Source: Pegea sp. RAD2-039
Taxonomy: Eukaryota; Chordata; Thaliacea; Salpida; Salpidae
Assembly: GCA_034620365.1 (NCBI GenBank)
Contig: JAQGEQ010000322.1
Coordinates: 124,001-188,000, forward strand
Direction: 5' to 3'
DNA length: 64,000 nt
Part shown: in pieces, positions 3,669 to 52,148 of the stretch
Numbering within the stretch: the stretch's first letter is position 1
How the letters are laid out: the number at the start of each line of letters is the position of its first letter
The notes under the pieces: model-generated
Database searches by the model: none
Seen by the model: only the letters and a program-made list of their open reading frames with translations
What the model was told of the DNA's origin: nothing
Translations under genes and position numbers: made by a program

Positions 3669-4134
3669 TTATTCCGTTTCTATCATATCTCCAGAGTATT
3701 CCGCAAAGCCTTCATCATCTGTTGGTGGAGATGGTTCTTCATTGGTAGTGTAAGTTACTGGATGAAAAACTGGTATTAGTGATTTACTTTATTAGCATCA
3801 CACGATTTTTATCATTTTTCAGATTGATGTTTTTTGACTGGTTAAACCAGTTACTTTGCAGTATTTGAAAATTGAGTTGGTAAATATGAAATATAAGATT
3901 TTTATTGGCAAAATTTGAGATTTATAAAAAACAGTTTAAGAGGTTTTAGATTAACATGCTTCGATAAAGCCGATAATATAGCAACAATTTTTACAGTTTT
4001 TTGTTATTAAGACAGTTAACATTTTGTAAGAAAAGAAGAGAAGATATAACTATGTTGAAATCATTTTGAAAGTGATAAGAATAAGCACAAACCTTCAAAG
4101 GCACTGTCTGCGCTTGACTCTCCTTCAGAGGCAG
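3669..4134 (-). other. Collagen gene exons 34-35: acidic C-terminal tail and stop
   Basis: Exon 34 (4093-4134) encodes [14 protein letters not shown]. Exon 35 (3669-3757) encodes [18 protein letters not shown]... and ends METE-like (MIETE, TAA). Both are phase 1 and join exactly. The tail is acidic and rich in Ser and Pro, resembling the earlier hinge exons in size and composition. No similarity to a known domain is apparent. Confidence 0.7.
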
Positions 4135-7100
4135 CTAAATCAAGTTTATATTAAATAAAATTAGTTCATGTTACTTGCTTGACATTTTACAATAAGCAGG
4201 AAATATAAACACAAATGAAAAGAATAACACAAAAAATCAATCAACAGAAAAAAATGCTTTAAAACCAAATCAAAACACAAATTAAACACACAAATTTCAA
4301 GCATGATTGTATGCTAAACAGAGATGGTAAACCTATCTGCACATGCAAAACTGAATCAACATCTTTAACATAATCTACTTGCTCTGTGTATTTCTGATAT
4401 ATTTAATATTATTCAACTTCTTGTAAACTCAAAAGCTGCAATAATTTTGCTTTAGGCTGATACAGGAAAACTTCAAACCTTTAGAGAAGAAGTTTCCTAA
4501 AGCAGAGCCACAAATTCGTCCTAATATTTCATCAACATCATCTAATAAATCATCATAATCCAATTCACTAAAGATAAATCTTTCAATAGGCTCAGAAGCT
4601 AACTTCAAAAGAAGCTCCTCTTTTACTAAATTTCCCAATCCAACGACAAAAACGTCAACACCTTAATTCATTATCTGTTATCTATTCATAATTTTCAGTT
4701 TGATAAAGTCGATTTATATTCAAATCTTGTCGTTAACGTGTCTTTCAACTAATAACAACGTACACACCTCCTAAGCGTAGAAACATAGCCTCAATACCAA
4801 CATCATCATATCTTGTTGTATCCACTATCACCAAAGCCACCTTTTATAGCAATAAAATCAATTTGGAGCTATACTTTCAAGTCAGTCTTTACCTTATGTA
4901 CATTAAATCGTTTTCTATGAATATTTTTAAAACTGTTTCTTAAATAACGAAGTGCAAATGGAAAATGAGTCTTTCCTGAAATCAATTTAGTCTCGCTTAT
5001 AGCATTCAACACGTTTTTATGATTTTGATTTTCATTGAAGTCGACGAAGCTTCTATAGAAAACTGTTTGATGATGTGAACATTGTAGGAAGGCTTCTACC
5101 TTGCTTTTTCAGTGTATTGCGTAATCGAAAGTTGAACACCAAGCTTTCCAAGAGTGTGAAATCCCATAACCAATTGGCTCAAAAAGATTTTAAGCTTATC
5201 TTGATTATTTGAAGAAATATCTCCGCCAATCAAAATCGCCAAATCCATATTAGCATTGTGACATTGATACTTTGGGTAATTTATTAGCTCATCCAGCAAA
5301 ATGATTTGTGTATCACTTGAATTTTTGTCCACTAAATTTCATTCATATAGAAAATTGTTTCTTTAATTTTGTTTATTGCAGTTTAAAGCAGCAAGTAGTG
5401 CTTAGCAATTTGGTTCTTACTTTGAAAAGTTTTATATTATCCATAATAATCAGGTTTGTTACAGCATTATTCTTTTCTAACAGCAGATTAAAGCTTAATT
5501 TTCTTCAGCGCCTTATCAAATGTTAGCTGTCAAGCTAGAAGAAATATATCAAGTCCTATGAAGCCTAACCTTGCATATCAAATAATCCTTTACTTCACAA
5601 AAGAATAAAAATCATACTAGCATGCGATGTAACTGAACCTAATGTTTTGTGACAAAGGATAAATCAGAAATATTATGATAAGTCACACCTCAAACACATT
5701 CTACTTACTAATAATCGTTGGTTTTAGACAAGTTGATATGCAGTCCGTTATAGTATCAAATACATTGCTTCCAGGACATTTTTTATAATTGAACATCATA
5801 CAGAGACCCTGTCGATTGTCCCAAAAGTATTTTGTGACCGGCATATCATTGTTTTCAAGGCAGTTACTAAGTGGTGGCTCATCATCACATATGTCCCCAC
5901 TTCCAATATATCTGTCTTTAAGTGGATACTTCCTGTGTAGTGCTTGTCTTTCAGGCATTATAGTTGTGTCTGCCTTCTTCACATTTAGTGATTTAAGCTT
6001 GGCTGGTACAAGGAAGAAAAAAATCTGTTGTTCAGAGTTGAAAGAAACAAAACACTCAGAAAATGGTGTAAAATGTGAAGTTTTGTTTCATGCTGACAAT
6101 AAAACTGATTGAATGTCGAGTGTGTGAGATGTAACAACTCAGAAACTAATAAATGTATGTTTTATTATAACGCCCTAAAAGAATAATTCATTCTTTGGCT
6201 TTCCTCGAACTATAAACACGATAAGAACACAAACAATGACGGTTAATGACGTCATTCATCATGTCTTACAACTGTGATTAGATGACGTCAGTGATTATGA
6301 CAAACATCATCAAGCAATAAGTAAGGAGAGGCTAATTAAATGGAATATGAAGCATATATGAGTTTATGAGCTGAAAAAGCAACGAACTAAGTTCATGAGG
6401 TTGAAATTAATTTCAAGATGTTGATATTAAATCATTTATCAAAATTTGTTTACATCTGATTAATTTGTACAAAAGGAAAAGATCCTAACAAAAGACTTGG
6501 TTGGAAGATAAAGGCTTCGTTAAGGTGCTGTTTCGTCGCCTCGAGCCATGTATCGTCCTGTAAAGTGGATTTTTCAACTTTTGTTGATCGCGATTTTGCT
6601 GTTTTGTCAATTTGAAAAGTTTTTATTTAGGTATTTGAAAAGCATGAGGGAATTGTTTGGTTAATGAGGGTTTGGTTAATTGGTAATAATTTGCGTTCTA
6701 ATAGTTTTGAATAGAAAATTAATTTTCGTTAAGACGGATATTATTGCAAACAAAAAAATGGATTTGAAAAATTTGAGGTAGTTTAAATCTAGAGCCCGAT
6801 GAAGTTGCTGACTACTAGTAGATGAAGGCGATCGAGTTAGTGATAAACTTTCTAACGTTCTATTCGCTACAATATAATTGATGGTGATTATTTATATTGA
6901 AGCTTATTCTGAATATATCAATTATTCGTATTCGGTGTATAAAAACAATTAACTAAATTCTAAGAAGCTCTTTACGTTTGACAAGAAAGTAATAAAAGAA
7001 AGATGCTTAAATTGAAGATTTAAGGTTAAAACTAATTCTCTTCTATACAGAATGTCTCTACTTTGTTGAGTATTAGCAACTGCTTATAAATCATTGATTC

Positions 7101-10100
7101 GATCTTTTATACAAATTGTCATCTAGGCATATTCTAAATCTCAACAAAGTTAGTACTACATTTTCAAGCTCTTCATTATTTCAAAAATAAACTTTCTAAG
7201 TCTTAAATCACTAAGTCACTTATCAGTCTTTCGTCTAAACAATTATGAAAATAAATAAAATTTAGCTTGAAGCTAAAATGATTTGAGTTAGTTAATGAAA
7301 TGACTAAAACACAAAACATGTTAGAAATGATGCAGTTAATAATTCAGTGATAAACGGCAAGACAAACGTATGAGCTTAAATTAAAGCAGCAAGTAAATTA
7401 ATTAAGATGAGATGACAACAAAGAAATTGAAAAAGCTCAAGACCTACCTTTCATTTCTTCAGTGTCTGGTGTTGACTCTGTGAAAAAATTAAACTTAAAA
7501 TCAAATCTAACAGCTATATTTTAGCAGAAAAACATTTAATAAATTTCTAAAGAATTAAGTAATTAAAAACATAAAAATATTTGAGTGTCATAGCTGCAGT
7601 ATTACTCAACAAATGGTTAGGTTAAAATATTTACACTTAGAATTTAAGTTATATATATATTTAGGAATGCTATATATAAATCAAAATTTAAACCAACGTA
7701 GCAAAAATCATCTCATATGAAGTTAAGGTTAATTATGAAGCAATTCGTTTGTTTTGTATCTATATTTTCAACTTCTACAATCGTATTATTAATTTTAGGG
7801 CGAAATGTGTTTGCTATAGCATTAAACTTTTGATAAAATTTATTTATCTACTGTGTTAAATGTAACTTTGTTAAATTTTTGCAGTTGATATGTACAACAG
7901 CGCTCAAGTGATAACAGACAAATTGAACTATTTAGAATCTGGAGAAAATAGTGTTTGACTTTAGACGATAACCATTTAAACTGATAGCAAAGATTAAAGT
8001 CTGTACTCAGTATTCAATCACTAAATACAAAAGTATTAAATTAAAAGTAAAATTGCTTTACAAAAGTGCTTTTATATCACGATTCAAAGAGATTAGAATT
8101 CGAATTACTCATTTACTGTAGGTTTGGACTATTTTAGTGAAAAAAATTGTTAATTTAAATCATATTTGATTCTTACTTGCAATAATAACTTGTTCTTCAG
8201 TTTCTTCTGCAAAATAAAAACTGAATTTAGTAAATAGCATAAATAGGTTTAATTATTACTTGTTTTAAACAATGTACTAGATCAAAAAGCTTTCATGCTT
8301 TCTTAATTTTAGTATTCTATATTGTTAATTATTCATACATATAAAACCCATCAATTACGAATATCATAATCAGATCATGCCAGCTTCCAAACACTTTTCC
8401 CCAAGTAGTTATACAAATCACGTTTTTGCACTTTTTGTATGATTTAAAATAAATTAAAGCCACCTCATGATAGCTACTTAAACCATAAATATAATTCTAG
8501 TTATATGTTAAAGGAAACTACATACTAAAGAAATAAAGTTCTTCTACTGAAAAGAAATTAGTTTGTAATCAATTCATTCCAAAGTTTGCAAATTATCACT
8601 TGACTCGCACTTTTCAATGCAAGGCATAAATTTGCATTTATAATAAAAGCTAAGCAATTATAAGTTTGGATGTTAGAATTTCTGTTTGAGGAAATGGTTA
8701 TCATTCACCATCTTTTTCAATGGTAGATGATATATCAGCCAGCAATACGTTTCTTAACCTTTCAAAGTAATTGCAACATTTGACTGAATTTTTCATTGAG
8801 TAAAAGTTTGCAGAAAATCTTATAGCTGAGCTTCAGCAAGTTATCTGTAAACTTGTTTACCTGAACGCTTTTTCACAAAACTGCAAATTGTTTCATGGAC
8901 AGTTGTTGGAAGAGTTGATAGTTTTTTAAAGTCATTAACCAAGTAGTATGAGCTACTCTTTGTAAAATCTTCAAGAGTTTCAGCATTAAAGCTTCCTACG
9001 CCAACGGCAACCATCATATCAAACATTTCTCTAGCTTTTTGTAAAACAACTTCGTTCTTGTAGTCATTAGCAACTCCATCAGTAAGAGTTAACAAAATTC
9101 TATATGAGTTTGATCTGATAAAAGATGGGAAGGTATCTGTTACTGATTCAAGTCCAGCATAGGTTCTTGTGCCAGACTTCATTTGATTAACTTGATCTAA
9201 AGTATCTCTAAAACTATCCATTGTAAAGCAGTCCACATTACTAGATGGGCTACAAATCATTGCAGAAAATTCCATTTGAGTGACTTCAGAGAATTGGTAA
9301 AGTAAAACATTGATTGGTTGCTCACAACTGATTGGCATAATTGATTCTACCATTTCTACAATCCATTCTTTTACATCAGAAAAGCCTTCATTAGAAATAC
9401 TTTCACTGCCATCAATAAGGAAAGCCAAATCAATTGGGTCGCTAACACAGCTACAAACTTCTGTCTGCTGACAGTCTCCATCGCAAGCTAAATAAAGAAA
9501 CGACCATTTTAGGACAAACCCAGTTAAATCACTTTCAGACTAGAAACTCAAGTTGAGTTTCCTGTGTTGCATCCAAGAAGGATTTATATTCAAATAAGAA
9601 TGCGTTTAGCAAACGTTTACAAGTATGGCTTGAAACAGCTCAGGATGTTTTTGTTATTGTAGCAAACAATATGTAGCGTTACAAGATGATCAAACGGTAT
9701 GATTGTTTAAATGAATAGGCTAAGTAGTAACAATGAATGATTAAAATATTTGCTTTTTTCATATTTTATAATTCTTTATCATCAAACTGATGAAAAGCTA
9801 AGCATCTTCTATTACTATGTTTTGACTAGTTAAAAAAGTGGCAAAAACAAAAAGCTATTTATACTGATTTTCAACATATCAGCCAACAAATTAACTATTT
9901 ATTTAATCAATCCCTATTCTCTGTAATCTTTAAGCGGGGCCTATAAATTCATGCTCCTTTCAAAATCTTCAGCTTTTAGAAACTTGTAAAGTTTTTTCAC
10001 TTACCACATCCTGAAAAACAAACAGTCGTCAGTTAGTAATTCAGAGATTTAAATGAAATGCGAAAACTTACTATCAGAGACTAACTCGATAACAACTTGT

Positions 10101-13100
10101 CTGATGTAGGATCTGATTTCATCTGATAGAGCTCCAGGAGGTCCTGGAGGTCCAGGAGGACCCTAAAAATGAGACACAACTACTAAGTAATCCGTTTAAA
10201 GTTGTTGAAGCTGCTTATAGACACCTGACGCCCGCTTTTTCCTTGTGGACCTTGTAGACCATCGACACCATCTTGACCGTCAGAACAAGAATCTCCCTTA
10301 GAAATAAAGTGAAGAAGTTATTAAATATTGCAATACTGAAAAATCAAAATGCTCACCTTAGGTCCTCGAGGACCGGGAAGACCAATTGGACCTAATTCCA
10401 CAGATGGTTCTCCCTTCTCACCTTTTGGCCCAGCTTCTCCCTAACGAACAAATTGGTTTACTGCCAATTTTCCTAGTTTAATCAAAAAAAAATAATAGTA
10501 ACCTCCTGACCACGTGGACCGCGTGCCCCTGTGGCTCCTCTTGGCCCTGCTGGTCCATTTACACCATTGAGACCATCTTTACCCTGTTGTCCTTGAATTC
10601 CAGGGTAACCACGGGGACCTTGAATTCCCATTTCACCCTAGCAACAAACATTTGTTGCAAACATCAAATTAATGAATCCAAACCTCACCTTCTGACCATC
10701 GTAACCATCAAGACCAGAAAATCCAATCGGACCCTGCAGTTAATTAGTTTATTTATTTCTATTTCTGCTCATAAATACATGGAACTTACAGGTTTGCCAT
10801 TTTCTCCAGGTATTCCACAGCCACCTCGACTTCCTTTAGATCCCTGATGAACAAACATTCATTTAGAAGCTTTTTGGTGGCAATTTTTAATAATGACTCA
10901 CTTGAGGTCCTTCTAGACCTTCGGGACCTCGTTCGCCTTTTTCTCCACGTCTTCCATCTCTACCAGGTTCTCCCTGTCAACCGCATTTTTTCATCAATCT
11001 TTCAGAAGTTCTTTAAATCAACAAGTTTACCTTGATACCGATTCCATCCTCACCAGCTGGACCACGGTCTCCTTTTTCACCCTATGAAAAGCAAATTATA
11101 AGCTGAATCAACTCATACATACTATTTCCAACTTACTTGTTCACCAGTCTTTCCCTGCTCACCAGGTTTACCCTTTTGAAACAATATCAATTAAAAAGAG
11201 TCAAGTGATGCTCCTTGAAATACTTACAGTTAAACCCATCTCTCCTTCTTCACCTTTTGGTCCTCTTTCACCTTGCACTCCCTAGAATCACAAAATATCA
11301 TAATAATGATTCTAAACAAGTCTATACTGACCTGTTCTCCTTGATCTCCTGTTTCTCCTTTAGCTCCATCAATTCCTTGTTCACCAACAAGTCCCCTAGG
11401 ACCAACTTCACCCTAAATACCAAGTGTTGAACTTTGATCGACCTCAAAAACCTTGTTTTTTACCTTCTCGCCAGGTTCACCTTTGCTGCCATCTATTCCC
11501 TGTAAAATTATTTGAAATTTATTTTCTATTCCGAGGATTCATCAATTAAAAACTTGTTTCTTATAAACATTTAAACAGAAGGTAAAAATATTTGTAAACA
11601 ATAGGACTTACATCAGTTCCATCACGACCTGCAGGTCCTTGTTCTCCCTTTTTTTAAAAAGACTTTATTTAAAAATCGCAGAAAATAGTGAAACAAATTA
11701 ACGCTTATAAAAATAAAGTTCATTTTCGATAAATTCTTAAATTTTTGTACCAAAGTCAAACTAGATATAGATAAGTAACTTACCGTTTCACCCTGAAGTC
11801 CCTGAAAATAGAAAAAATAATTTGTTAAAGTTGGTTTTTGTGAAAAATTGTTGCTTTCAAAACAAATAAAATTTTTTGAAGTGCCTGCAAAAAACCAGAC
11901 CAAAAAAATTTCAAGTAAAACATTTTTGTGGTTTTTTAACTTTCATTCAAATATTTTCTTCATATTTATTATTTCTAAGTTAATATTTTTGTATCATCAA
12001 TTTTCTGCTGAGGAAACCCTAAACTTATACATATGATTTCTTATCTAACTTTATCAAGGTTTTTTTCAAGATCAAAACTAATTACTTCTACAATGTTTCT
12101 CTATAACATTTCAGATAATTAAAAGAACTTATTCATCAAAAATATTTTCGACAGTTCTTATAAAAAACAATTTAAGATAATGTAGAAAAAAGCTATTCTA
12201 GCTTTACAAATGCTTGATGACTAATTTGATAAATTAATAGTTTAAAATCATAACAACAAAAACGTTTACGTACTACTTCGCCTGTTTTGCCTACAGGACC
12301 TTGAGCTCCAGTAGTGCCCATTTCTCCCTTTTCGCCCTAAGATATAAATTTTTAAAAATTTTATTCTAAACGTTTATCACAACTTATTTACTTTAATAGA
12401 TTCTCCTGGTTCACCTTTTTGTCCAGGTGGGCCAGAAGGTAGCTGTGAAAGTTTTGTTTTAGAAAATAGATTAAATTTAGTAAGTTTTAAACGAAATAGT
12501 ATTTACATCACAAGTACAGTTGCAAGTGTTACATGGTGATGCATTCAACTCTGCTACTTTCTGAATACTTTTCTGAAAAATAATATTTAGATATTTGAAG
12601 CCTTTAAAAATGTCATTAATTTTCATAAAAGATTGAAACGTTACGAATATAAACCGTTCTGATATCAGCATTTGAACTTACTCCCTGCAAAAGAAAACAA
12701 AATATTAGCAAAGCATACAAAGAAGATAATAGAAGTATGTTGATGTAGATACACTTACTCTCAATTCATCCAAAACGTCAGTAATAGATTCACTATCCTT
12801 CATCGTGTAAAATGGTGTGTTGCTATTTCTGCCGATTTTTCCAAGTTTCGTCATCACGTTAACATCAGGGCACATATTATCGACCCACATATCTTGAGTT
12901 TGTACACTGAAAAAAGGTTTTCGCTTTTATACAAAGGCTGAAACTACTTTCACGACGCTAATGTGTCATAATTGCTTACTGGCATCGACGTGTTACTGAA
13001 ATGGGAATAACAGTAACCCCAGCTTGATCTAATCCATCGACTGATTGTTGTACAGCTCTTTGCGAAACAGTAGGGTGACTGTTACCATTGGTCAGTACTA

Positions 13101-14391
13101 TAATCACTTTTGACTAGAAATAGTTTAACGTTAAACATTAAAAAAATAAGCATAAAACTTAAAGCACTTACAGCGTTTGCACGGGGGCTATTTTGAAATT
13201 GAATTAGTGATTGGTTTAGAGCTGAAATATTCTGAAGTTATTTAAATTGTTTAAAAGCGAACAACTTTACTAATCACCTTTGTTGAGGTAAGCTCCTTGT
13301 CCAATAAAACCTAATCCATTGACAGCTTTTGTTAGTTCACTTGTAACTTCCTTGTTAGTTGCACCATTTGTAGAATCTTTGAATGGAACTGGGTTCTTGA
13401 TAATATCACTAAACTGTAATTCAATAAAGTAAACAGGATCAATAAGGAAGTAGGATTAAACATTTTTATGTAGTTGTAAATTAGTTGATACTTGACGAGA
13501 CTCTGCTTCTATTGAAACATCTCAAAGTTATTTTTGTTTTGATGTAAAAGTATCAATACAGAAATTTATGCTCATATTAGACGAGCTAATAAAAATTAAC
13601 CAGGTAGAACGTACCATCATTAAACAAGTTTTGAAGGACACTTTTGCAAGCTTAGAAAATTACTTCAATTGTTTTATGAAGCATTTTAATTAAATCAATA
13701 GTAAGTATAAATTTGAACACCTTGTTGATTGAGTAAATATAAACAATCACCAAAAAGTTAAATCAAATAGAATACTGACTCATAAATTTCATTAAACTTT
13801 GCTACTTGAATAGAACTACCAGCAGCTATAATCATCTTTCAACTGACTCATCGATATATGTAATTAAGGGCGTGTGCTCGAAGTGAGATTGTTTAAACTT
13901 TCATTTTTTTAATTTAGACTAAATCAATCTCTGTTGATTTGCATATAGTCCGCTGATACAAGGGGAATTTACCTGAAGAACAGAAACTCTCAAATTTCCA
14001 CTTCCAACCAAACTTAGATCTTGGTCACGACCAATTCTTTTAATCAATTTTGTCATATATCGAGTCATTCTGCTGTGGTGGTCACGAAAACAAGCACTGC
14101 TATCAACAGCTAGAACTACGTCAACTGGATCAGGAGCTCCTAAAAACAAATTCTGTAAATTTTTAGGTCACTTTTATGAGAAATCAAAATCTTACTTAAT
14201 TCCGCTGCCGGTGAGCAACAAACACAACTACATTCTCCTTGTGTCTGTGGATGTATTGGTCGAACATTTAAAAGAGCATCATCTGCCTGCATTCCGTACA
14301 AGCTGGCAAAACGGTGAGTCTTCATCTTTCGACCATGTACATTGACCCATATGGCAAACACCACAACGATTGATAAAAGCACACGATTCAT
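3669..14391 (-). CDS. Collagen VI/XXVIII-like VWA-collagen-VWA-Kunitz-VWA protein, 35-exon gene
   Basis: This is a secreted extracellular-matrix collagen. The model runs from an ATG at 14389-14391 to a TAA at 3669-3671, with 35 coding exons totalling 3,645 nt (about 1,214 residues). Every intron begins GT and ends AG, and the phase carries across every junction without a stop. Domain order by residue: signal peptide 1-20, Cys knot 54-59, VWA1 about 71-275, triple helix about 304-606, VWA2 about 648-832, acidic hinge 838-870, Kunitz 896-949, VWA3 about 985-1166, acidic tail to 1214. Collagen VI and XXVIII chains bind matrix partners through VWA domains and trimerise through Gly-X-Y repeats, so that role is inferred here. 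Vertebrate collagen XXVIII normally ends with the Kunitz domain; the extra VWA3 and tail are unusual. Many introns are only 55-70 nt. The least certain points are exon 7 (a 3-nt microexon) and the non-consensus GTTTG donors of exons 33 and 34. Confidence 0.9.
4479..5331 (-). other. Collagen gene exons 30-33: third VWA domain
   Basis: The exons are 5100-5331, 4893-5052, 4768-4840 and 4479-4661. The fold is readable: [13 protein letters not shown] (strand A and MIDAS loop), [24 protein letters not shown] (MIDAS Thr), [13 protein letters not shown], and [11 protein letters not shown] with [18 protein letters not shown] at the end. The MIDAS is degenerate, since the first Asp of DxSxS is Gly. Phases 1, 2, 0 and 1 join without stops. 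The exon 33 donor is AAAG|GTTTGA, weaker than consensus. If unused, the frame would run on to a TGA at 4429. Confidence 0.85.
5709..6002 (-). other. Collagen gene exon 29: Kunitz/BPTI domain
   Basis: The exon starts after a strong polypyrimidine acceptor and encodes a basic linker, then six cysteines in Kunitz order at about residues 896, 905, 925, 933, 945 and 949. The spacings are C-x8-C-x19-C-x7-C-x11-C-x3-C. The second-to-third spacing is about four residues longer than usual. The residue after the second Cys, the P1 position of trypsin inhibitors, is Leu rather than Lys or Arg, so strong trypsin inhibition is not expected. An in-frame TAG at 5701 is intronic, because a good donor (A|GTAAGT) precedes it and the phase matches the next exon. 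Confidence 0.88.
6247..6290. promoter_or_regulatory. Two palindromic CRE sites
   Basis: Two perfect TGACGTCA palindromes occur at 6247-6254 and 6283-6290, 36 bp apart centre to centre. They lie in intron 28 of the collagen gene and about 260-300 bp upstream of an exon-like plus-strand ORF. CREB/ATF-family factors bind this motif. They may serve an enhancer of the collagen gene or a promoter on the plus strand. Confidence 0.55.
6548..6630 (+). CDS. Possible first coding exon: short N-terminus plus transmembrane anchor
   Basis: The ATG begins [10 protein letters not shown] followed by a hydrophobic run [10 protein letters not shown], and the exon would end TTTAG|GTATTT. A short basic N-terminus plus a signal anchor is the typical start of a type II membrane protein. 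The local sequence is GC-richer than its surroundings and two CREs lie upstream. Read through, the ORF stops after 38 residues. I found no following exon, and the position is antisense inside the collagen gene, so this may be chance. Confidence 0.25.
7448..8206 (-). other. Collagen gene exons 27-28: acidic hinge
   Basis: Two 30-nt phase-1 exons, 8177-8206 and 7448-7477, encode [10 protein letters not shown] and [10 protein letters not shown]. Both have clean acceptors (TTTTGCAG, TTCACAG) and donors (GTAAGA, GTAGGT). They form an acidic spacer between VWA2 and the Kunitz exon. Being identical in length and phase, either could be skipped without breaking the frame. Confidence 0.75.
8861..9487 (-). 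other. Collagen gene exon 26: intronless VWA2 domain
   Basis: A single 627-nt exon holds the whole second von Willebrand factor A domain. It starts with a Cys-rich linker (CDGDC, CSC). The MIDAS is intact: IDGSESI (DxSxS), Thr in SGTRTYAG, and Asp in LLTLTDG. The domain continues with [10 protein letters not shown] and ends near VHETICSF. The exon ends TTCAG|GTAAAC, so the reading frame beyond 8861 is intronic. Of the three VWA domains, this is the one most likely to bind a divalent cation and ligand. Confidence 0.93.
10005..10010 (-). other. 6-nt microexon (exon 25) of the collagen gene
   Basis: The minus strand reads a pyrimidine-rich acceptor ending TTTTTCAG, then GATGTG, then a perfect donor GTAAGTG. 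Inserting these six bases is what makes the frame work. Exon 24 leaves one base, A; the microexon gives A|GA TGT G; exon 26 begins CT. The result is Arg-Cys-Ala joined to CDGDCQQ. Without the microexon the VWA2 exon would be out of frame. The added Cys joins the Cys-rich stretch before VWA2. Confidence 0.8.
10072..12442 (-). other. Collagen gene exons 9-24: interrupted Gly-X-Y triple helix
   Basis: Sixteen exons encode an uninterrupted reading frame of Gly-X-Y: 12392-12442, 12274-12336, 11784-11801, 11612-11647, 11464-11499, 11332-11412, 11228-11281, 11137-11172, 11031-11081, 10902-10973, 10790-10843, 10689-10733, 10503-10637, 10357-10440, 10225-10296 and 10072-10162. Nearly all start with a Gly codon in phase 0, the collagen exon rule. 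Sizes are mostly multiples of 9, including 18, 36, 45, 54, 63, 72, 81 and 135 nt. The helix is about 303 residues, closer to the roughly 335 of collagen VI than to the longer collagen XXVIII helix. Visible imperfections are GIGIK at the end of exon 17 and GEPSVELG in exon 22. Two cysteines lie in the repeat (GGCG in exon 19, GDSC in exon 23) and could form interchain bonds. The helix ends [10 protein letters not shown]. Confidence 0.92.
12507..14391 (-). other. Collagen gene exons 1-8: signal peptide, Cys cluster and VWA1
   Basis: The exons are 14196-14391, 13973-14139, 13278-13413, 13172-13221, 12980-13113, 12759-12906, a possible 12682-12684, and 12507-12572. The start is favoured by a classic signal peptide ([20 protein letters not shown]). 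A C-x-C-x-C-C cluster follows at residues 54-59. VWA1 begins at [14 protein letters not shown]: the MIDAS loop is DSSAC instead of DxSxS, so its last Ser is Cys. The MIDAS Thr is probably in GATNKE and the central strand is [10 protein letters not shown]. Exon 8 encodes the junction CNTCNCTCD, the Cys-rich linker expected just before the triple helix of collagen VI/XXVIII chains. Confidence 0.88.
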
Positions 14392-14395
14392 TTTT

Positions 14396-17300
14396 CAGTG
14401 TTAAACTTTTAATATATCTATGGCCCCTATGAGGCTTTTCCCTGCTGAAGTAGATAATTAAATAATCAAATAAAAGTTCAGTATTAAAATCAAAGTCTCT
14501 CTATAAAAACATTAAGATGTTTGATAAAAGTTTCTTTCAAACTATTCAAACAGTCTGACATATTTTAAATTTATTCTCAACTCTTATTCAGAAAATTATA
14601 CTAACTATTAAAACAAAAATTTCATCAAAACCAAACTTGTCTTCTCTTTAAAGTTTATTTTTTTAAGCAAACTCTAATTTGATTGTCAACGCCCAACGAA
14701 TGTATCATCAAAGATACGATCGGATTTCTACAAAAAATCGAAGTCACATAAGCGCACAAAAACCTTTGCTAAGTATCTGACAGATTGAATAGCAGACGTA
14801 CATTGATATAGGAGGGAAATCTCTTTTTTTCTTTCGTTTCTTACTAGTTGAAACGCTCAATAGTCTGAGATAGAAAAGAAAAAAGATTTTCTTTTAAAAA
14901 TAAGATTGATTCATGCCGAAAGTCGAACCGATCTATAACTCAAACGAAAAATTAGTCAGCTAATAAAATATTTAAACCAATAAATCTGTTTTACTTGTGG
15001 TCGATTTACATTAAAGAAGGCTACTTCTGTTCTATTATACTTCTTCTCATAACATTTTCTCTCTAGAAAAATTGAAAGAAGCACAAAGCTTAAAATACCC
15101 CCAAAAACTTGACTACATAATACTATGATCATCTTCATCATCACTAAGAGAGTTCGTTCACTCAGTATAATTTTTTTTTGATATTCTGAGCATAATAAAA
15201 GGGACAAAGCATGCTCTTAACCAGACGCTCATGTCTACAGACAGGAAACCAAAACTATTGTTGAAGTTGTTACTGCCGAAGCTACCATAGCTGCTCAATG
15301 CCACCACTTGAGTGTAGTAAAGAGTATGAAAGTAAATTTAACGTAAAAACTCCTCGTTTGTTTGTTTATAAAAGATTCTTTAATGTAACTCCTTCGTGAG
15401 GTTTTTGATAAAAATGATTCTAAAATAAGATTTTTAGTAAACTATTTTTAAGTTGATAAATTTTAGCAATTCATTTAATGCGATAAACTAGCTGAATTAG
15501 TAAAGAGCATGTCTTTCAGCACTGACTACACATCTCAAGAAAATTTATAAAGCTTTTTAGCTACAATATAAGCTTAATACGAAAAACATTTCCTTTGATT
15601 GATTGGTTTGGTAAGAAAAACATGATTAAAGAAAATTTCAAAAAATGCTGAATTACATGTAAATATCGTTTACTAAAAAGTAATCTAAGTTTTAATTTCA
15701 ACAAAAGTATGTACAATGGGCTACTAAACATTTTCTACACTTTGTTCGATGTGATAAAGTTAGAGATTTATAGTTTAGATTTTATATTTCTGAGTTGATT
15801 AAAAATCTTATGATTTATCTTAAAGATAAATTTTTTATAAAATATTTGTGATTTAAAAATAATTGATAAATAATATATTTAATTTTGACAAACTGAATTT
15901 AAATTAATGATCTAAAATAACTGATAAAAATTAAACAAAGTCCAAATTACTTATTACTAGCTTGTTAAACTATTAATAATAAAATACTTTGGATACTTTT
16001 TCTTTTTTCGTTTATAAATTTCAAACAATTGATATTAGAAAATAATAATTATTTCAAAAAAACATTTTTAGAAACACAAGTGATATGAAAATCTTTGCTT
16101 ACTTTTTAGAATTTACTGTTGGATGCAGCGTTAAAAGTTTGTCATAATATTTTCAATATTATTTATATAAGCTTTTTTATCATTGAAAGTATTATTTTCT
16201 TTTATTAAATATTTTTAGTTTATACTTTTATAGATTCAATTTTCAAAAGTTTTAAGTTTTTTAACGAAAAGATAAAAAAACAAAGTTTTAAAAATACTTT
16301 CAATTCTGATAGTTACAAAAAATTTGATTTTTTATAAGAACATTTGTTAATAAAGTACAGAAACTATTTAAAAATATGTTTTCTGCAAACAAGTTTGTGT
16401 CATTAAAGTTTTATCTCATTAACATAAGTTTTTTATAAATTAAATATAAACTTACTAAACTATTTATTTAAACATGTTTATTTAGCTAACAACAATGTTG
16501 AAAAAACAAACCTTGTCAATTATTTGAATTTTAGTTCAGCTACGAATAATTGTTGAATGAAATCGTTTATATTTTGCTAATATTAAAAACTTATTTCATA
16601 TTTTTGAAAAAGCTTTTCCAGTTAAATTAAATTATCTAAGTTTTATTTATTATTAGTCTTTAAATATTAAATAAATTCCCTAATAAAATACATATTTTCA
16701 TTTATTAACAAATAATTTTAGTAAACAGCAATAACAATTTTTAATGAATATTTGATTAAAAAAATAATGTTAATAAAATTAGTTTGTAAACAATTTATAT
16801 GTTTTGTCTGATTGAATATAACTGAAATTTATTGAAAATAAAAATAAAAAAATAAATTTTGAAATTTTGTAAATCAAGCAAATCCCTTTAGCATTTATTC
16901 TAATAAAATAAGAAGTATATGGCATTCCACAATTTTCTAAAACACTTTTGTTTTATGTAAACATTGAAGAATAGAAATTTAGAAATTTGCTGTACTTTTC
17001 ACAAGAAAACGTTTAGAAAAGAATTTAGTTAAAAAGTTATTCTACTTCTAAGTAAGTAAATATAACAAATGAAAGATTGGACAAAAATAGATTTTTGAGT
17101 AAATGTCGGTGGTATAAAGCAACTTTCTCTGACTAATTGCAATATGAACAAGGGTTGAGCATGAAAAGATCAAATACAATTAAATTTGAAAGCATTGCAG
17201 CTTCACTATGGAAACAGTTGGTATTGTTTGCTGTAATTACGATTTGATGATTTGATATTTGACATTTTCAGAATCAAAACATTTTAAAAGACATTAAAGA

Positions 17301-20300
17301 GCATATTTAAACGGTTTACAAGAAATCAAATATTGAATCAAAGCTTTTGAAAGTTCAACTTTTCTATAGTTTAACGATTTATTAATAATTGATGATTTAA
17401 TTATTATTAATTGAAAATTTAAAAAAAAACTTCATATTTTCATTTGAAAATTTGAGAAATAATCTTTGGAAATAAATATTACTTAAATATACCAACAGCA
17501 AGTTAAAATCTCAAACTTACTTCACAAATGTGTGTGTAATTTACAATTAATCACCAAATCTAATACACATCACTATCTTTAAGTAATAATAAGATTGCCA
17601 ACAAGAAATTTAAGTTTTAGGTATTCAACTTCCTTAATAAGACAACTAAAAATACTCTAGAAAAGATGATTTGTTGTTATTGGGTAAAAAAATGTCAAAT
17701 AACCTAGGTTTTACTTTAAATTGTATTTAATAATAGAATTATAGCTCCAATTTTCTAATTATAAAGTTTTACATGAAGACCTTTCCTAAATAGCTCTATT
17801 TAGATACTTTAGAATCAAAATACAAATGAAAAACAAATAATTTTATAATGGACAGCTTACCTAGTAAAATCGCTTAGTAAAATGCTTGAAATTTTTACTG
17901 CAAGTAATATTGGATACTAGAATTATTTGCACAGCTTATTAGCTTCGTTGTTCAAAATACGTAGATTGTAAAAGCATCAAGCCTAATTGAAATTTGATTT
18001 GTTAAAATATAAAAATTCTTTTCGTAATTTGAGGATTTTTTCATTATTAACAAACTTGTTAGAAATTAAACTGCTTCTTGCAAGAAAAATATTTTTTGAT
18101 CAAAAAAGCCAAGTTTAAATAGAAATTAAATAATTAAATCATTTCTGGTTATCTCTTAAATTTAAGTAAATTTTTTTAAAACTATTATTTTTAAAGTTTT
18201 GAATAAATGGGTTAGAATAACCAGGATGTCATAATCATAACTTACGTACTTGTTCAAATATTAGTTAAAGATTTCAAATTTAATTAAAAGAGTTGATGTT
18301 AGAAGCGATGTAATTTAAGACATCTAAAACACAAAGAATTAAATAGAAGCTAGCTGAAATCTACATTTTTTTATTATTCTTAAATCTCAGAATTCTATAG
18401 ATTGACAATGAAAGGTTAGCAGCTTTATATATCTAATTTAACGAAAAAATGTTTTCAAAAGGTGAGTAAGTTCTTGGAAAAAACTAAACTGCAAATCGAA
18501 GTACATTTTCAGACAAATTATCTGGTCTACCTACAAGATTAAACATCGAAAGAAAACGTAATGTGGTGCATGCGTCTATCATATATGTCTGGAAATTTGG
18601 TTTAGACTTAGGCTAGGGTATACATAATCAAAATAAATCTTTTCCTATTTTGGTCTGAGATAATAAGTGGCTAGAGAAAGTTTACAAAAAATGGCCCAAC
18701 AGTTGAATTTCTGAAACTCAATATATTGAATGCAGTGTCTAGACATAGACGTGTTTAACTCGATGTGAAACGTTAGCACTTTATAGGGAACTTCGATTGA
18801 CAAGCCGATATTACTGCATATTAGAATGTTCAAAAAGAAAAATAGTTTTAGTCAAGTTTATGATCATGACAAAAGTAAATCGTTTCATACAAAATAGTTG
18901 AATATTAAAAATCGCTTTATTACAAAAGCATGGATTACAAAGGTGCTTACTTTACAAACTATGCAAACATAACATTTAATGTGTAATAAATTGTGATTTC
19001 ATTATTAAACTTTTTTCAACCAAAACAAACACTATTTAAAGTACATAAAAGATATTTGCACTGTTTAATTTGGTTATTCAAAGTTTGCTGTAGAAAAAAG
19101 TTGATTAATTTCCTAGATGTGATGCTATGTGATTTGATTTAAGTATATTGTGTAAGCATCTTGTCAAGAAAATATTCTATTAACTTTGAGATGATCAAAA
19201 TATATCACTTGATTAAAAAACCTCTAGATATACTCATTTAAAACTTCACTTCTCAAAATTTTCCAAATATCATACATCTTATTTCAGATAAGAATATAAA
19301 ACTATTTATCTTATAGGTGAATAATTTTTAAAGAAATTTTTGTAATTCTTTAAGCAAAGCTAAATTCTTTAATAACTCGTTTTAATGAATTAAATTTTAT
19401 AAAAAAAATTGTTGTTAACAGCTGAAGTTAATTACGTATCTCAGTTAGCTTTGTTTTTTGTGAACATTTTTTTACAAGGATTACAGAGTTATTAAGACCT
19501 AATACCAATCATAAAGCTAACTAGCTGTTTCTTTCAATTATAATCTGACTTTAATTAACCACAACAATTCTAGCTTGGTTCACTGCTAACTTTTGATTCA
19601 TAATTTTAAAGAAATGTAAGTTCAAATTAATTTTAGTTAGACAGCCTGAACTTATTACAATTGTTTTTTGTTTGTCCTAAAATAATTAAATATTACTAAA
19701 TTTAAAGTAGAAATTGAATACTATTACTTTTTGAAATCATTTTCTATTTAAAAGTAGATTTAAATTGTAAAAATGTTGAAATTATTCGTAAGAACCATAT
19801 CAATATAACTTTAGGTTTTCTTAAATAGCACATTTATTTTTATCAAATCAAACATCAAACATATCTATGAGGCATCACACAATGGTTGTTTGCAAATTAA
19901 CTTTATGTTCTTAAGATTAGCTTTAAACTTTCCTCTGTAAGACTTAATGCAGAAATTTGGTGATGAAAAAATTGAAAAAGAAAGCAAATTTACTTGATGT
20001 TATTATTTTAGAGTAAGGTAAGTGTAGTAATTCAAGTAACCAAATATTCAAACACTTTTAAAAATTCAAGTAAAAGTTGATAAATAACCAACAATTTTAC
20101 ACCCCGATGAAAATGGTTAACTAAAATCAGTTTATTTTTGTAAAGTTGCTGCTACTTTGAGTGTTTAGTTTAGAATACAAGCAATGAAGTCAACTAAGAC
20201 AAGATCAAGTCATCGGAATCAATTTCTCTTGGGCTTGTTTTATCTTGAACAGTCTCAAAGCTACACTATTTAACTAACTGGAAAGAAGCCAACCAAACAA

Positions 20301-40900: not shown

Positions 40901-43439
40901 CTTTCTAATTATTGTTAATTTAAAAGAGAGTAAGTTGCTAGAAAAATAAATTTCAAACTTTTTGAATAACTTGTCTTGTTAATAAACCATCTTCATTTAT
41001 TCTTTTGTTATTTGAATACTTAACAATGATTAATTATTGTAAAAACTTAATAATTCAATCATCATTATAATTTTCCCTTTTCGGTTGTATAATCAAATAT
41101 ATTTTTTCTGATATCTTCATTGATATGAGATTTAAATTACTTTTAGGACATATTCAGATCTGTAAGCTTAAAAATAAATATTTTTAAGAATTCTTTTCAT
41201 AAAGAGGCATTTATTTAGCTTCAATCAATTAGTTTAAGCAGATAAATGCGAAAAAACAGATTTTGGAACAATTGTTTAACTGTGGTTTTTTACAATCTAA
41301 TTTTTCAAAGCTTCGCATTTCAAACACCTGAGTAAAGGTTTGAAATTTAAAATATCAAGAAGTGCAAAACCTATCTTTTTAATCTTGAAATAGTTAGTTA
41401 ATAGAGTTTCAACTTTCGTATATAATCTTAGACAATCAAAAAGGATTTACTGAAACTCAGTACAAATAAAAACGTTCTACCTAATCATAAATTATTTAGA
41501 TTAACGAGATGAACATAATATTGATATAATGAGTGGCTGGTGTATACACTGCCAATATACAAGAATAAATGGAGTCACTTATATAATAGCAAAGTTCTAA
41601 ACCAATAATTTAATCTTAAATAAAGTTCAAATTTAAATTGTAAGCTTCAAATATGATTAATTGAATTTTGTATAAAAAAGTTCAAATAACTTGACTGAAA
41701 TAGTATTTTCCGATGTTAATAAAAGTTGAAGTTATTGATAAAACCAATTTTTGTGGAGCATTTTAAAGCAAACCATGAACTGATTTCACCTTAGAAAATT
41801 CATTTTCATTAGACGGTCTTACTAATCTAATTAATTTTTCAATTTGTGTGTTTTTCATCTTGAACAGACTTTAAATTAAAGGCACTTGTTGGATACATCA
41901 ATAATCTTTTGGCTATCATCTTGTAGCTTGGAACCAAGAAATAAACATTTGATAATATTTCAATGCTTGGTTTTAGTTGGTTTATTTAGAGCTTGATAAA
42001 ATTTGTAATAATGGTGTTAGAGTATTTTTAACTATGTGTAATATTTGTATTGTGTTAATTTATCAACGTTTTGGTTCTTGTAGGAAATTTGAAAATTTAG
42101 TTTTAAGGTTTTAAGAAGTTCTACAAGTATGAATTTTTATAAAACCACCTTTTTAAATCCTTTTAAGTTTTTTATTAAATACTTTAATTAAATAAAAATA
42201 GAGTAATCTTTAATTAATTTTACTAAGCAGATTTTCTAACTTTTCGATTGCAGTTGTAAGGAAATAATTTGTTGTTTTACTTTTTTTTAAACAAAACAAT
42301 TTAACCAATTACAATATTTAAAAACATATTTATTCTATTTTCAAAATATGTTGAACTTTTAAGAAGCTTATAAAACTAAGCTGGTTTATATCATAAAAAC
42401 TTAAATTTACAGAGATTTGGTACGCTTAGCAAAGCTTACACAAATTAGTAGAAAAATTATTATAAATATTATTCATTTTTTATCTGATTGATTCTTAGTT
42501 GATATATTATTCCAATCTTTAGTGTTTTTAAAGAAAAAGAACAAAAAAACAATCTGTGACATCAGTAAACTTGGTCAGATTTTTTCTCTAAAATAAACAT
42601 TCAAAAAACATTACAAGAATGTAATCGTCAGCGCTGTTAGGATTGTAGTCTTGAAGAAGTTGATCAAATCTTTGAATAGACCTTCTCGTAACGCTTTTTC
42701 ACTTACATAAGTCAACCTTAAGTAGATGGATCAAAGTTTTTGTATGTTCCTAACGGAAGTTTTTAACTATTTTACAATTATTATATTACTAAAGTTTTCA
42801 TCATTCTTTATTTATCTCATGGTTTTCGAAGTTACTGAATGAAAAATATTTTACAAGTTTATTTGTAAACTATATTTGTAAATATAACTTGAAACGTTTC
42901 TATTTAGGGACAAAACAGTTGATTTAAATTATAGATGATACAAGCAACTGTTTATTAAGCTTTAAACATACTTTAATGACGAAGTCTCAATTAAATCACA
43001 AATACCAATTTGTTCAATTCTATAATTCAGTAATCAAAAAAATTGTTTAAAAGTTTTTTCTTAACATTAAAAACTTAATTATTATTAGCTTAATTTAATA
43101 ATTCACCGTGACAAGCTTTATAATTTATAGATACCAACTTAAGTTGAATTTTAATTTGTTAACTTTTAGTTAAAGATTCCTACAAACAATATTTAATTTC
43201 ATAAATATTATACAAATTTTGTATACGCTGATACAATACCCAGACAAATAAGTTAGAAAAGTTACAGAAATGCACAAAATACCTACCACTCTCTAAAATT
43301 AATGACGGTGTTACTGTTAACACTTTACTATCAGTTTTAAAGAGTGTTGTGTGTCCTGAGTTATATATTTTTGGGGATTTTATTTTAGTAAAATTGATTA
43401 GAATAACCCGAATGTGAAAAAATAATTTAATTTGGATAG

Positions 43440-44210
43440 CAACAAAACTAATTCAGTCATTTTAAGTCATGCCTTTGTAAGCTTCCTCGATGCCAATGAC
43501 CTATCTTATAACTATCTTATAGGAAGAAAAATTACAGTCTTACCTTGACAATAGCCAGAAAATGTTTTTTGGCTTCATATATCACAAGCTTAAGGTGAGA
43601 TTTCAGTTACCTCCCTTGCTTGATAACAGCAACCAGCTTGTGATGAAACCAGAGAATAAAACTGAATTGCTTAACAAACAATTTAATAGGTCTTGACATA
43701 ACGGTCGATATGGTAACTAAGGCTATATCTTTTTCAAAATCATTTTTCCAAAACCTTTGATAAGATCCCAGCTTTAAAAAACTACTTTCTCCATACGAAT
43801 AAAAAATTGATAAAGAAGTATCGATCCTTAGAATTAAAGGTTCTTATTATAAGGTAGACAAGGTTGATTGATTTTGAAAAGATATTGGAAACATAATGCG
43901 TTGTTCAAGCAGAAGTTGAACTGTTATAATATTACCAACATTGCCATTTCTAAACTGTGAACTTTTTTTTTTTTTAACATTATAATAATTCTATGTAATT
44001 TTTCTATTTTATATGCTTTGGGGACCACCGAAATGCCACGTGTTAAATCATTTTCTTTCTACACTTGTATCTTAATTATTAATAATAGCTACTATTATAT
44101 ATATAATATATTATATAATAGTATTATATATGCTATTATTTGTGAGAATATGTGTTATCAAGAGGTGCTCTTTTCAGGCACCCTCCTTTGCGTTTAATGA
44201 AACAAATTCT
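43440..44210 (+). mobile_element. Degenerate LINE fragment, plus strand, with 3' terminus
   Basis: The region 43490-43700 is homologous to the pre-RT part of the minus-strand element (KMFFGFI-like and VMKPENKTELLN-like readings, with stops). The region 43900-44190 matches its ORF2 end and 3' UTR and finishes in the shared stem-loop. A middle segment near 43806-43895 matches the element in the opposite orientation (it pairs with 45462-45585 on the same strand), so the copy is rearranged. It cannot code. Confidence 0.7.
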
Positions 44211-44340
44211 GTTTGAATAAGTTTCAGGTTATAAGTTATATTCTAATTGAATAAGTGCTTATAAGTTGTGATATAGTTATTCATAGGAAATGATTTGTAT
44301 ATTATATATATACTGTGGTTGGTGACAGTAAAAATCTTTT

Positions 44341-44788
44341 ATGAAAACTATGGTGGATTCACATAAAAGTGGCAAGACCTTATGGTCTACTGTAAAGAAA
44401 ATTCCTGAAAAACCGACTTCATCAAAGCAAGATTGCAATAGCCAATCCTACAATAAAATTTGCTCTGGTGAAGATCCGGTAATTGAATGCTTTAAATACC
44501 TCTCCTGCTTTCATCTCACCTGTAGTGATGTGAGCAAGAAAATTTATGATATGTTTGAAAAAACCCAGATGAAGCAAATGGGGTTTAAATGATTTTGCAT
44601 TAAATGTAGAACCATGGACACAACAGCTCCCTCAACCAATTCTAATTCAAACTTATTATCCGACATCAGCAAATCTATAACCGCTGAATAAGCCAAATTT
44701 AGATCTGAAATTGGCAAAGATGTTGCCAAGATTGACGAGAAGGTATCTAGTTTGTTCAAATCAATGGACGAACTGAATGCCTCTAATA
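44341..44788 (+). mobile_element. LINE ORF1 5' fragment, plus strand, interrupted
   Basis: The frame starts near MVDSHKSGKTL and contains the Cys-rich PHD-like motif (CSGEDPVIEC, HLTC, later FCIKC). It has in-frame stops, for example after MKQMGFK, and ends abruptly after SMDELNAS, where the minus-strand element's 3' end begins. It is homologous to the ORF1 at 47.6-48.1 kb but lies in the opposite orientation. Confidence 0.75.
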
Positions 44789-44969
44789 AATACAAAGGAG
44801 GGTGCTTAAAGAGAGCACCTCCCGCTAACACACATTCTCACAAATAATATTAATATTAAGTTAGAAATATAGAAAGAAAAAGATGTAACACATGACATTT
44901 CGGTAGTCCTCAAAGCATATAACAGTGAACAATTACATGGAATGTTAATAATATAAAAAAGAGAAAAAT

Positions 44970-47178
44970 TCACAGTTTAGAAATGGCAGTTGTGGCAATA
45001 TTATAGCGGTTCAACTTCTGCTTGAACAATGCGAGTGATTCTGACATGACAATGTCTGATGGCAGCTGGTTCCATGTACTAATTGTGCGGTATGGGAAAA
45101 AATTCAATCTGACTAATGTACCAGGTGATATGGGCTTATTAAGATGTAATGTGTGTCGTCTGAGCTGATATAACTTAAGGGAAGGGCTAATGGAAAATAA
45201 ATCATTAAACTGAAAGTTAATAAAATTGTGGATAATTTTTAAAATAAGAATTAAGTCGTATTTAATTCGTCGAATTTCCAAAGTATCTAAATTGAAGAAG
45301 CTGAGACGATGTTTTTAACTATCGTATTTAATATTAAGTTTCTGCAAACCAATCTCGTAAATGTGGCCTGAACAGATTTGATATTTTGATATCACTAACT
45401 TGATATGGCATCGATGCACTGACATTGTATTCAAGAATTGGACGTACATACAATTTGAAAAGGTTGATAAAAAAGCATGGGTTCTTAGAATTAAAGGTCT
45501 TTATAATTATCTATAATAATATAATATAATGATCTTTATAATAAGACAAGGTTGATTGATTTCCCAAAGATTTTGGAAACATAATTGTGCCACTTAAAGT
45601 CAGATGATAGAGTAATGCTAAGGTCTAGGACCAATGATACTCGTTGAATAATAAATCTATTGATGGAGTATTGCTTCAAGGAATTTGCAGCTGGTTTACG
45701 TGGAAAAAAGTTATAAGTTCAGACTTTGTTGGCTGGTTTCTGAGCTGCCAATTCGTAGACCAGTTTTCTACAGTATGTAGTGTAGTTTGAAGTTTTGAAG
45801 GATTACAAGATAATAGCTTGATGTCATCTGCATACACAAACACACTGACATCATCTACTGCTACTAGTCTTCTGATGAGGTCTTTAATGAAAATTAAAAA
45901 GAGAAGGGGACCCAGAACGGAACCCTGAGGAATACCACTAGTGATTTGACTAGAAGTAGATAAAGATCTTTCTACACGAGTTTGTTGGGTTCTACCTGAT
46001 AGGTAATCTTCAATCCACTGTACGATAAAGCTGTTGATTGTTAAGTTTTCAATACCGTAATAAGCTTGTATTTGGGACAGAATCAAACACTTTAGCAAAA
46101 TCGAATTATATAATGTCACAAAGAGTATCACTTTCATAATGGGCTGTAAGCTCATTAAGAAAAGTGAGATGTTGAATCAGGGAAGAACTCCGTTTCACAA
46201 AGCCATGTTGGACATCAGATATTAGATGGTGCTCCATCAAATGACTGGTCGTATGATTGTGAATGATATGTTCTTGAGTTCTGCAGATAATTGAAGTCAG
46301 CGAAACTGGCCTGCAGTTAAGTGCGGTGTTTCTTGGACCCTTTTCATGAATTGAAATAATAATAGTTTTCTTCTAAATTTGTGGAACTCTTTCTCGCCTC
46401 AGAGTCATGTTAAAGAGAAGCGATAGAGGTAGTGATAAAGATGAAGTAGTTTTTCTTACTACAAAGCTGGGATCTGATCTTGGGTGTTGGAAACTGATGA
46501 TCTTAAAGAAGAAATAGCCTTAGATACCATATTAACCAATATCAAGATATTTCATCTCAGAGACATTTGTAAGAATGTCGTGGTAGGAAAGAGAAGTAGT
46601 ATTGCCATCATCGGTAATAAAAACGCTATTAAATTGATTGTTTAGCAACTCAGCTTTATTTTCTGGTTCCATCACAAGCTGGTCGCTGTTATCAATTAGG
46701 GGAGGTATTTGAGATCTCGCCTTAAGCTTGCGATTTATGAAACCAAAAAACATTTTCTTGCTAGGTGAAGATAAAACTGCACTTTCGCTTCCCAAATAGA
46801 AATTAGAAACAGATTTCTTGTAAACTATACAAAGATCTTTGTATAGAGATTTGATGGAAGGGTCTGTTTTAGTTTGTTTGTATAGGAGGTTTTTTAAATG
46901 TTGCAAATTCTTTAAATTTTTGGGAAAATGTGGTTTTTTGTTGATTCTATAGAAAGGTATGAATTTTTCGATTGACTCTTTAACGATGTTAGTAAACCTT
47001 GAGTAAATAGTATTGATGTCTTCGGAAGAGTTGAAAACAGAAATCCAGTCAACATCTGATAGAAAATTGTTAATACTATTATAATTTCCACAGTAAAAAT
47101 TTTGCTTGAAGTTTTAACGTTCATAAAAAAAGTTTGGTGGAGCTTGATAAGAAAAGTTTGATGTTTAAATTCAATCAT
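44970..47178 (-). pseudogene. LINE ORF2 remnant: reverse transcriptase
   Basis: The pieces read in order: IEFKHQTF (endonuclease end), a linker ending NVSEMKYLDIG, RT motifs SGIPQGSVLGPLLFLIF and VFVYADDIKLL (the catalytic Asp pair of RT), and the C-terminal domain with RRIKYDLILILKIIHN, SPGTLVRLNFFPYRT and STWNQLPSDIV. These motifs place it in the CR1/L2/Jockey group. Several frameshifts and stops separate the pieces. Confidence 0.85.
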
Positions 47179-47419
47179 GTTGTGATCGCATGTCGGAGCA
47201 AAAGGTTATTTTTGATCAACGTAGATAATATTCTCAGGTTTTGATGTGCTCTTTTAGAAGACGCTTATTTTCTAAGCGATCATCTTCACACATATCATAT
47301 GCTACTCTAATGCGCTCGAATTTTTTCTCAAGTTTTAGCTTATACAGCTTGGCAAGAAACTTGCGTTTGTCCCAACTTTCCTAAATAACACTTTCAACGG
47401 TCTTTGATGATCTGATCTT

Positions 47420-52100: not shown

Positions 52101-52148
52101 ACAATTTTAAAGAAATTTCTTTTTTTTCAGATTTGTAAAGGTAAGAAA

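Follow-up and report, generated by a model that had tools for sequence, protein, structure and literature searches.

A single gene on the minus strand of a 64,000-nucleotide stretch of the Pegea sp. genome (the window; C113:124001-188000) probably encodes a secreted matrix collagen chain of the VWA type, 1223 residues long, in which a third VWA domain (VWA3) and an acidic tail follow the Kunitz domain. The arrangement appears to be new although its parts are familiar.

Gene structure and domain order

The gene was built by hand from the minus strand between positions 22000 and 1, with exon borders chosen by eye for open frames. It has 35 exons running from 14391 to 3669 in a single open frame with consistent phases. 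All 34 introns are GT-AG, a result of the choice of borders, and their median length is 62 bases. The end of exon 10 was set at 12274 in place of 12277, which leaves the G-X-Y triplets unbroken and lengthens the protein from 1222 to 1223 residues. The domain order is signal peptide (by eye), VWA1, collagen helix, VWA2, an acidic linker, Kunitz, VWA3 and acidic tail, with the features placed as follows.

14196..14391, minus strand: exon 1, start codon, signal peptide (by eye) and Cys-rich N-terminus (gene model)
12655..14139, minus strand: exons 2-7, VWA1 with degenerate MIDAS, at 14139-13973, 13413-13278, 13221-13172, 13113-12980, 12906-12759 and 12684-12655 (gene model; Pfam VWA 1e-17 alone)
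10005..12572, minus strand: exons 8-25, Cys-rich linker and collagen helix (gene model; Pfam Collagen, five stretches)
8861..9487, minus strand: exon 26, VWA2 within one exon, complete MIDAS residues (Pfam VWA 9e-18 alone)
7448..8206, minus strand: exons 27 (8206-8177) and 28 (7477-7448), two acidic micro-exons of 30 bases each, phase 1-1
5709..6002, minus strand: exon 29, linker and Kunitz domain with six Cys (gene model; Pfam)
5701..5708, minus strand: splice donor GTAAGT, which shares bases with an in-frame TAG stop (sequence)
5100..5331, minus strand: exon 30, first part of VWA3 with MIDAS loop LIGGDISS (gene model; Pfam)
4893..5052, minus strand: exon 31, second part of VWA3; the similarity of a second gene copy ends inside it, at 5022
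4768..4840, minus strand: exon 32, third part of VWA3 (gene model; Pfam)
4479..4661, minus strand: exon 33, last part of VWA3 (gene model; Pfam)
4093..4134, minus strand: exon 34, acidic, phase 1-1 (gene model; codon scores)
3669..3757, minus strand: exon 35, acidic end of the protein with its TAA stop (gene model; codon scores)

An earlier note on this DNA had proposed a domain search on the assembled protein. In Pfam the VWA (9.3e-55, three stretches), Collagen (5.2e-43, five stretches) and Kunitz (1.5e-5) families were all matched by the 1222-residue version of the protein, in which the numbering is one lower after residue 346. The collagen helix covers residues 313 to 617, a length of 305 residues with four short interruptions.

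The third VWA domain and the acidic tail

The claim that four further exons in matching phase encode a third VWA domain was borne out by their open frames and by the profile match. These exons (5331-5100, 5052-4893, 4840-4768 and 4661-4479) are entered in phases 1, 2, 0 and 1. Together with the tail piece they match Pfam VWA at 5.2e-21, the alignment spanning positions 11-168 of the 174 in the profile, and VWA3 scores 76.1 bits against PF00092, for which the gathering score is 23.8. VWA3 has no match in NCBIfam, which is built for prokaryotes. On a codon scale derived from the gene's own exons 1-29, the VWA3 exons score 0.11 per codon versus -0.30 and -0.09 in the other two frames, and 500 intergenic stretches gave a mean of -0.36 (sd 0.12, highest -0.06). 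The domain is flanked by C988 and C1170, just as VWA2 lies between two Cys, and the Cys in exon 33 may pair with the Cys before VWA3.

By eye, VWA2 has all five MIDAS residues while VWA1 and VWA3 are degenerate. The VWA3 motif reads GGDIS, T, D against DxSxS, T, D, keeping only the Thr, the second Ser and the second Asp. A complete MIDAS is not needed for the VWA fold. The residue list was taken from a description of integrin I domains in which the five residues are fully conserved, tunicates included (PMC4237329).

Exons 34 and 35 (4134-4093 and 3757-3669) contain 13 Asp or Glu and no Lys or Arg in 43 residues. Among the phase-1 exons that can be read in the 850 bases beyond VWA3, they have the top score in the internal and the terminal class, respectively. 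In random 850-base stretches the internal score was reached in 9/600, the terminal score in 0/600 and both in 0/600, although the score of the acidic exons is favoured by the gene's own amino-acid bias because the scale comes from exons 1-29 of the same gene. With codon scores beyond a chance search and a TAA stop in exon 35, the earlier suggestion that two acidic exons end the protein stands.

The degenerate MIDAS of VWA3, and the loss of most of the domain from a sister copy of the gene (see below), would both suit a relic of a dead or fused neighbour that is no longer made into protein. This is highly improbable: the VWA match is complete across four open exons in phase, their codon use is of the coding kind, the acidic exons exceed chance, and the MIDAS of VWA1, in this same gene, is degenerate too. 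The observed arrangement is probably that of a real protein.

The Kunitz exon and its junction with VWA3

The Kunitz exon (6002-5709) has six Cys in Kunitz spacing (C905, C914, C934, C942, C954 and C958), and this piece alone matches Pfam Kunitz_BPTI at 1.3e-7 (32.1 bits against a gathering score of 21). Following BPTI numbering, we take its P1 residue to be Leu. The exon ends in ATTA, and the intron begins with GTAAGTAG. Unspliced read-through would add Ser-Lys and then stop at the TAG at 5701, while splicing to exon 30 gives Ile-Met-Asp. The donor that had been noticed before the apparent stop is present, an A followed by GTAAGT, and the stop itself is formed by donor bases. A stop of this sort easily arises by chance wherever a donor reads GTAAGTA in phase 1. 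With a perfect intron side but a poor exon side, the donor at 5708 reaches 3.4 bits, and the exon-30 acceptor at 1.2 bits is the weakest of the gene's 34 acceptors. The intron after the Kunitz exon carries AATAAA at 5377 and ATTAAA at 5367, which could end a short transcript.

It is possible, though less likely than not, that both ends are used, with alternative splicing or intronic polyadenylation giving short Kunitz-ended and long VWA3-ended chains; this would add to the main explanation. If splicing at 5708 did not occur, a short form ending at the Kunitz domain would result. The overlap of donor and stop, the AATAAA at 5377 and the shared 1-1 phase of the Kunitz exon and the VWA3 block all fit two ends, as does the second copy, which keeps the donor-stop but is without most of VWA3. 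However, the stop is of the kind that chance readily supplies, and AATAAA is frequent here, occurring once per 335 bases on the window's minus strand.

A different reading ends the collagen at the TAG at 5701, as in vertebrates, and assigns VWA3 and the tail to a second gene downstream, possibly its partner in an operon, with a spliced leader joined at 5331. It was tested because spliced leaders serve to resolve operons in tunicates, among them Ciona, which is described as having a single one (PMC7986045). The in-frame TAG ends eight bases past the exon, the AATAAA at 5377 follows it, the cis acceptor is weak, and the genome contains the 16-mer of the Ciona leader, although its neighbour is a LINE and it is no part of a leader RNA gene. 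Neither exon 30 nor intron 29 offers a start codon with a signal peptide ahead of VWA3, which makes a separate transcript start before 5331, named in the earlier note as a refuting outcome, unlikely. The first three ATGs of exon 30 are out of frame and open short frames; only with the M of NMDLAIL, in the first strand of VWA3, does an in-frame ATG appear, and no signal peptide goes with it. Intron 29, the only intron searched, has eight ATGs; two of them meet phase-1 GTs, after only 1, 2 or 4 residues, and none gives a signal-sequence exon. The Cys pair and the acidic tail, by contrast, fit a secreted protein. Judged from exon 30 and intron 29, a separate VWA3 gene is thus very unlikely, and a single gene reading through to the acidic exons is preferred.

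A second copy of the gene

Searches of the assembly (105.7 Mb in 387 contigs) with the Kunitz and VWA2 domains found one further good copy, about 86 kb away on the same contig and strand (C113:215500-227600; L003 and L004). The VWA2 search also gave a partial match on C215 (6.4e-4). The second copy aligns to window positions 5022-19959 in pieces at 93-99 percent and breaks off inside exon 31, within VWA3, beside LINE-like sequence. No match to exons 28 and 32-35 was found in the 30 kb examined at this copy, and a search of the genome with VWA3 found the second half of the domain nowhere else. Skipping exon 28 would keep the frame because the exon has 30 bases and is phase 1-1. The donor-stop after the Kunitz domain is kept, and the other exons keep their flanking AG and GT with the exception of exons 10 and 11 in the first mapping. 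By reading, exon 10 has a GTAAGT donor and exon 11 is lost. Over window positions 12336-11784 (exons 10-11) the second copy, again by reading, has six additional residues, no exon 11 and an unbroken G-X-Y repeat; the alignment of the copies is unreliable in exons 10-12.

Outside exons 10-12, the copies differ by one indel in exons (33 bases, in frame) and by 18 in 5350 bases of intron, none a multiple of three. No nonsense change is listed between them, where 3.25 would be expected among 86 changes (P 0.037). Judged from these sequence differences, the reading frame is kept in the exons common to both copies. The comparison supports the frame of the gene body and not that of VWA3, because only 263 VWA3 exon bases, with one difference, are held in common.

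Exons have diverged as much as introns (2.76 and 2.32 percent, respectively), and omega is about 1.6, not significantly different from 1. A first count gave 75 replacement and 10 silent changes. The intron-calibrated count gave 72 and 13, against 73.1 and 20.9 expected (P 0.075), or 60 and 11 without exons 10-12 (P 0.11). Positive selection between the copies was considered and set aside as not significant at these values. The substitutions between the copies likewise show no sign of purifying selection at the amino-acid level. The second copy is missing one Kunitz Cys (R at 914) and one Cys before VWA2 (Y at 643).

Sister genes might differ in precisely this module, one ending Kunitz-VWA3-acidic and the other at the Kunitz domain, with frames kept while amino acids change neutrally, much like matrix proteins of the recognition or immune type. 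On that view the C-terminal module would serve as a binding head, either released or exposed. This idea is an unlikely one.

Leader-bearing elements and other loci

The exact Ciona leader, ATTCTATTTGAATAAG, occurs once in L003 (4493-4508, minus strand), beside a second near copy and ahead of a LINE-like element; 0.0007 exact 16-mer matches are expected by chance in the 94 kb of the window and L003-L005. A related LINE-like element in the window has two one-mismatch versions of the leader. At up to two mismatches such counts are not rare by chance, as equal numbers were reached in 10/100 shuffles of the window and 10/200 of L003. A 14-base part of the leader is matched three times in L005 at one or two mismatches, a number reached by 1/200 shuffles. 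Taken with the small genome and short introns, the leader matches would by themselves point, with moderate strength, to an ascidian tunicate; no leader RNA gene was found. At both L003:4470-4508 (minus strand) and window 44206-44255, the leader exon stands ahead of the LINE coding part as a tandem pair of exact or near copies, a pattern that repeated reinsertion of leader-bearing LINE transcripts might leave.

Window positions 43280-48128, mostly on the minus strand, hold a degenerate non-LTR retrotransposon, with Pfam RVT_1 at 5.7e-18 in one of four pieces and no match in the other three. Its relatives adjoin the break of the second gene copy. Elsewhere in the window are three very similar single-exon frames for multi-pass membrane proteins, receptor-like by eye (52095-53141 on the plus strand; 56251-57246 and 61747-62826 on the minus strand). 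The two that were scanned matched no Pfam family above the cut-off.

The source of VWA3

The earlier note ascribed the architecture to domain shuffling or duplication. A recent internal duplication of VWA1 or VWA2 is not supported by the comparisons within the gene. By blastp, VWA3 has no significant match to either domain (best E 0.47), identity being 18.5 percent over 178 aligned residues and 20.5 percent over 161. VWA3 also has no intron position exactly in common with them. The nearest pair of introns lies before the KVIIVL/VALVIV strand, both in phase 0 and about two residues apart, and these are possibly one common intron that slid.

VWA modules have been shuffled in many matrix proteins. 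Among single domains in the PDB, VWA3 is matched best by the I domain of integrin alpha-M (40.6 bits, E 1.9e-9); the higher total of collagen VI alpha-3 is a sum of many weak domains, the best at 19.7 bits. However, an integrin alpha subunit carries its I domain in a beta-propeller within a transmembrane chain, and no such Pfam match was found here at E 0.01. Integrin I domains also have a complete MIDAS, whereas VWA3 keeps only three of the residues and has no integrin context. Second in the PDB list by total score is byssal proximal thread matrix protein 1, which has two VWA domains. It is likewise a VWA-built matrix protein, but its best single domain reaches only 28.6 bits against VWA3, and it is not known to have a collagen or Kunitz domain. 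Within the rest of the genome, VWA3 matches one gene on C262 at 2.2e-5, among eight candidates scored. This weakly similar locus (C262:2003959-2004399; L011) has two VWA units, with TSP1-like and sushi-like exons by eye.

Relation to known collagens

Vertebrate collagens VI and XXVIII end with their Kunitz domain. The Pegea chain shares the VWA-collagen-VWA-Kunitz order of COL28A1, but VWA3 and the tail follow its Kunitz domain unless the TAG at 5701 is used. The collagen XXVIII helix is said, in the title of one work, to contain many imperfections. Collagen XXVIII is described as having a pair of VWA domains and a helix of 528 residues (PMC9719427), whereas the helix here has 305 residues and four interruptions. 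The label "collagen XXVIII-like" given by the earlier note therefore holds for the domain order, seen in Pfam and the gene model, and fails for helix length and for the position of the Kunitz domain. Membership in collagen XXVIII is doubtful and the name is best used only as "like". No COL28 chain is among the PDB matches listed for VWA1, VWA2 or VWA3.

The collagen VI helix, about 335 residues between VWA domains, is nearer in length and is also flanked by VWA domains. The top PDB matches of VWA2 and VWA1 are the collagen VI alpha-3 and alpha-1 chains, respectively. Collagen VI alpha-3 has a Kunitz domain in its C-terminal region, as here, but it has many N-terminal VWA domains where the Pegea chain has one. 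The C-terminal VWA domains C1 and C2 of collagen VI are adjacent, whereas here the Kunitz domain lies between VWA2 and VWA3. Unlike collagen VI alpha-3, the whole protein has no FN3 match in Pfam at E 0.01.

No VWA-collagen-Kunitz-VWA chain is described among the titles and abstract openings listed in the open literature, the coverage of which is incomplete. Ciona is reported to have 14 collagen genes, set out in a supplementary table (PMC5612238), and an orthologue may already be known among them.

Proposed function and significance

The frame, domains and phases are read directly from the sequence, and from them we infer trimerisation, matrix assembly and binding roles. The helix would bring the chains together as trimers, and these would build into the matrix as collagens VI and XXVIII do. 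VWA2, as the sole domain with an intact MIDAS, could bind metal-dependent ligands, while VWA1 and VWA3 would bind partners without the standard MIDAS metal. The Kunitz domain, with Leu at P1 and Glu at P1', is probably structural and not an inhibitor.

The linker before the Kunitz domain is basic, with KKR after VWA2. In collagens VI and VII the Kunitz domain is described as being cut off outside the cell (PMC8172798). Because the Kunitz domain is internal in the Pegea chain, cleavage at the basic linker would release a Kunitz-VWA3-acidic fragment and not a lone Kunitz domain. The result is a modest one unless the arrangement is conserved across tunicates or expressed with two alternative ends. 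If true, a chain whose internal Kunitz domain is followed by an adhesion-type domain would mean that the C-terminus of VI/XXVIII-type collagens has been remodelled in another chordate lineage, and that a binding domain can be part of what is released.
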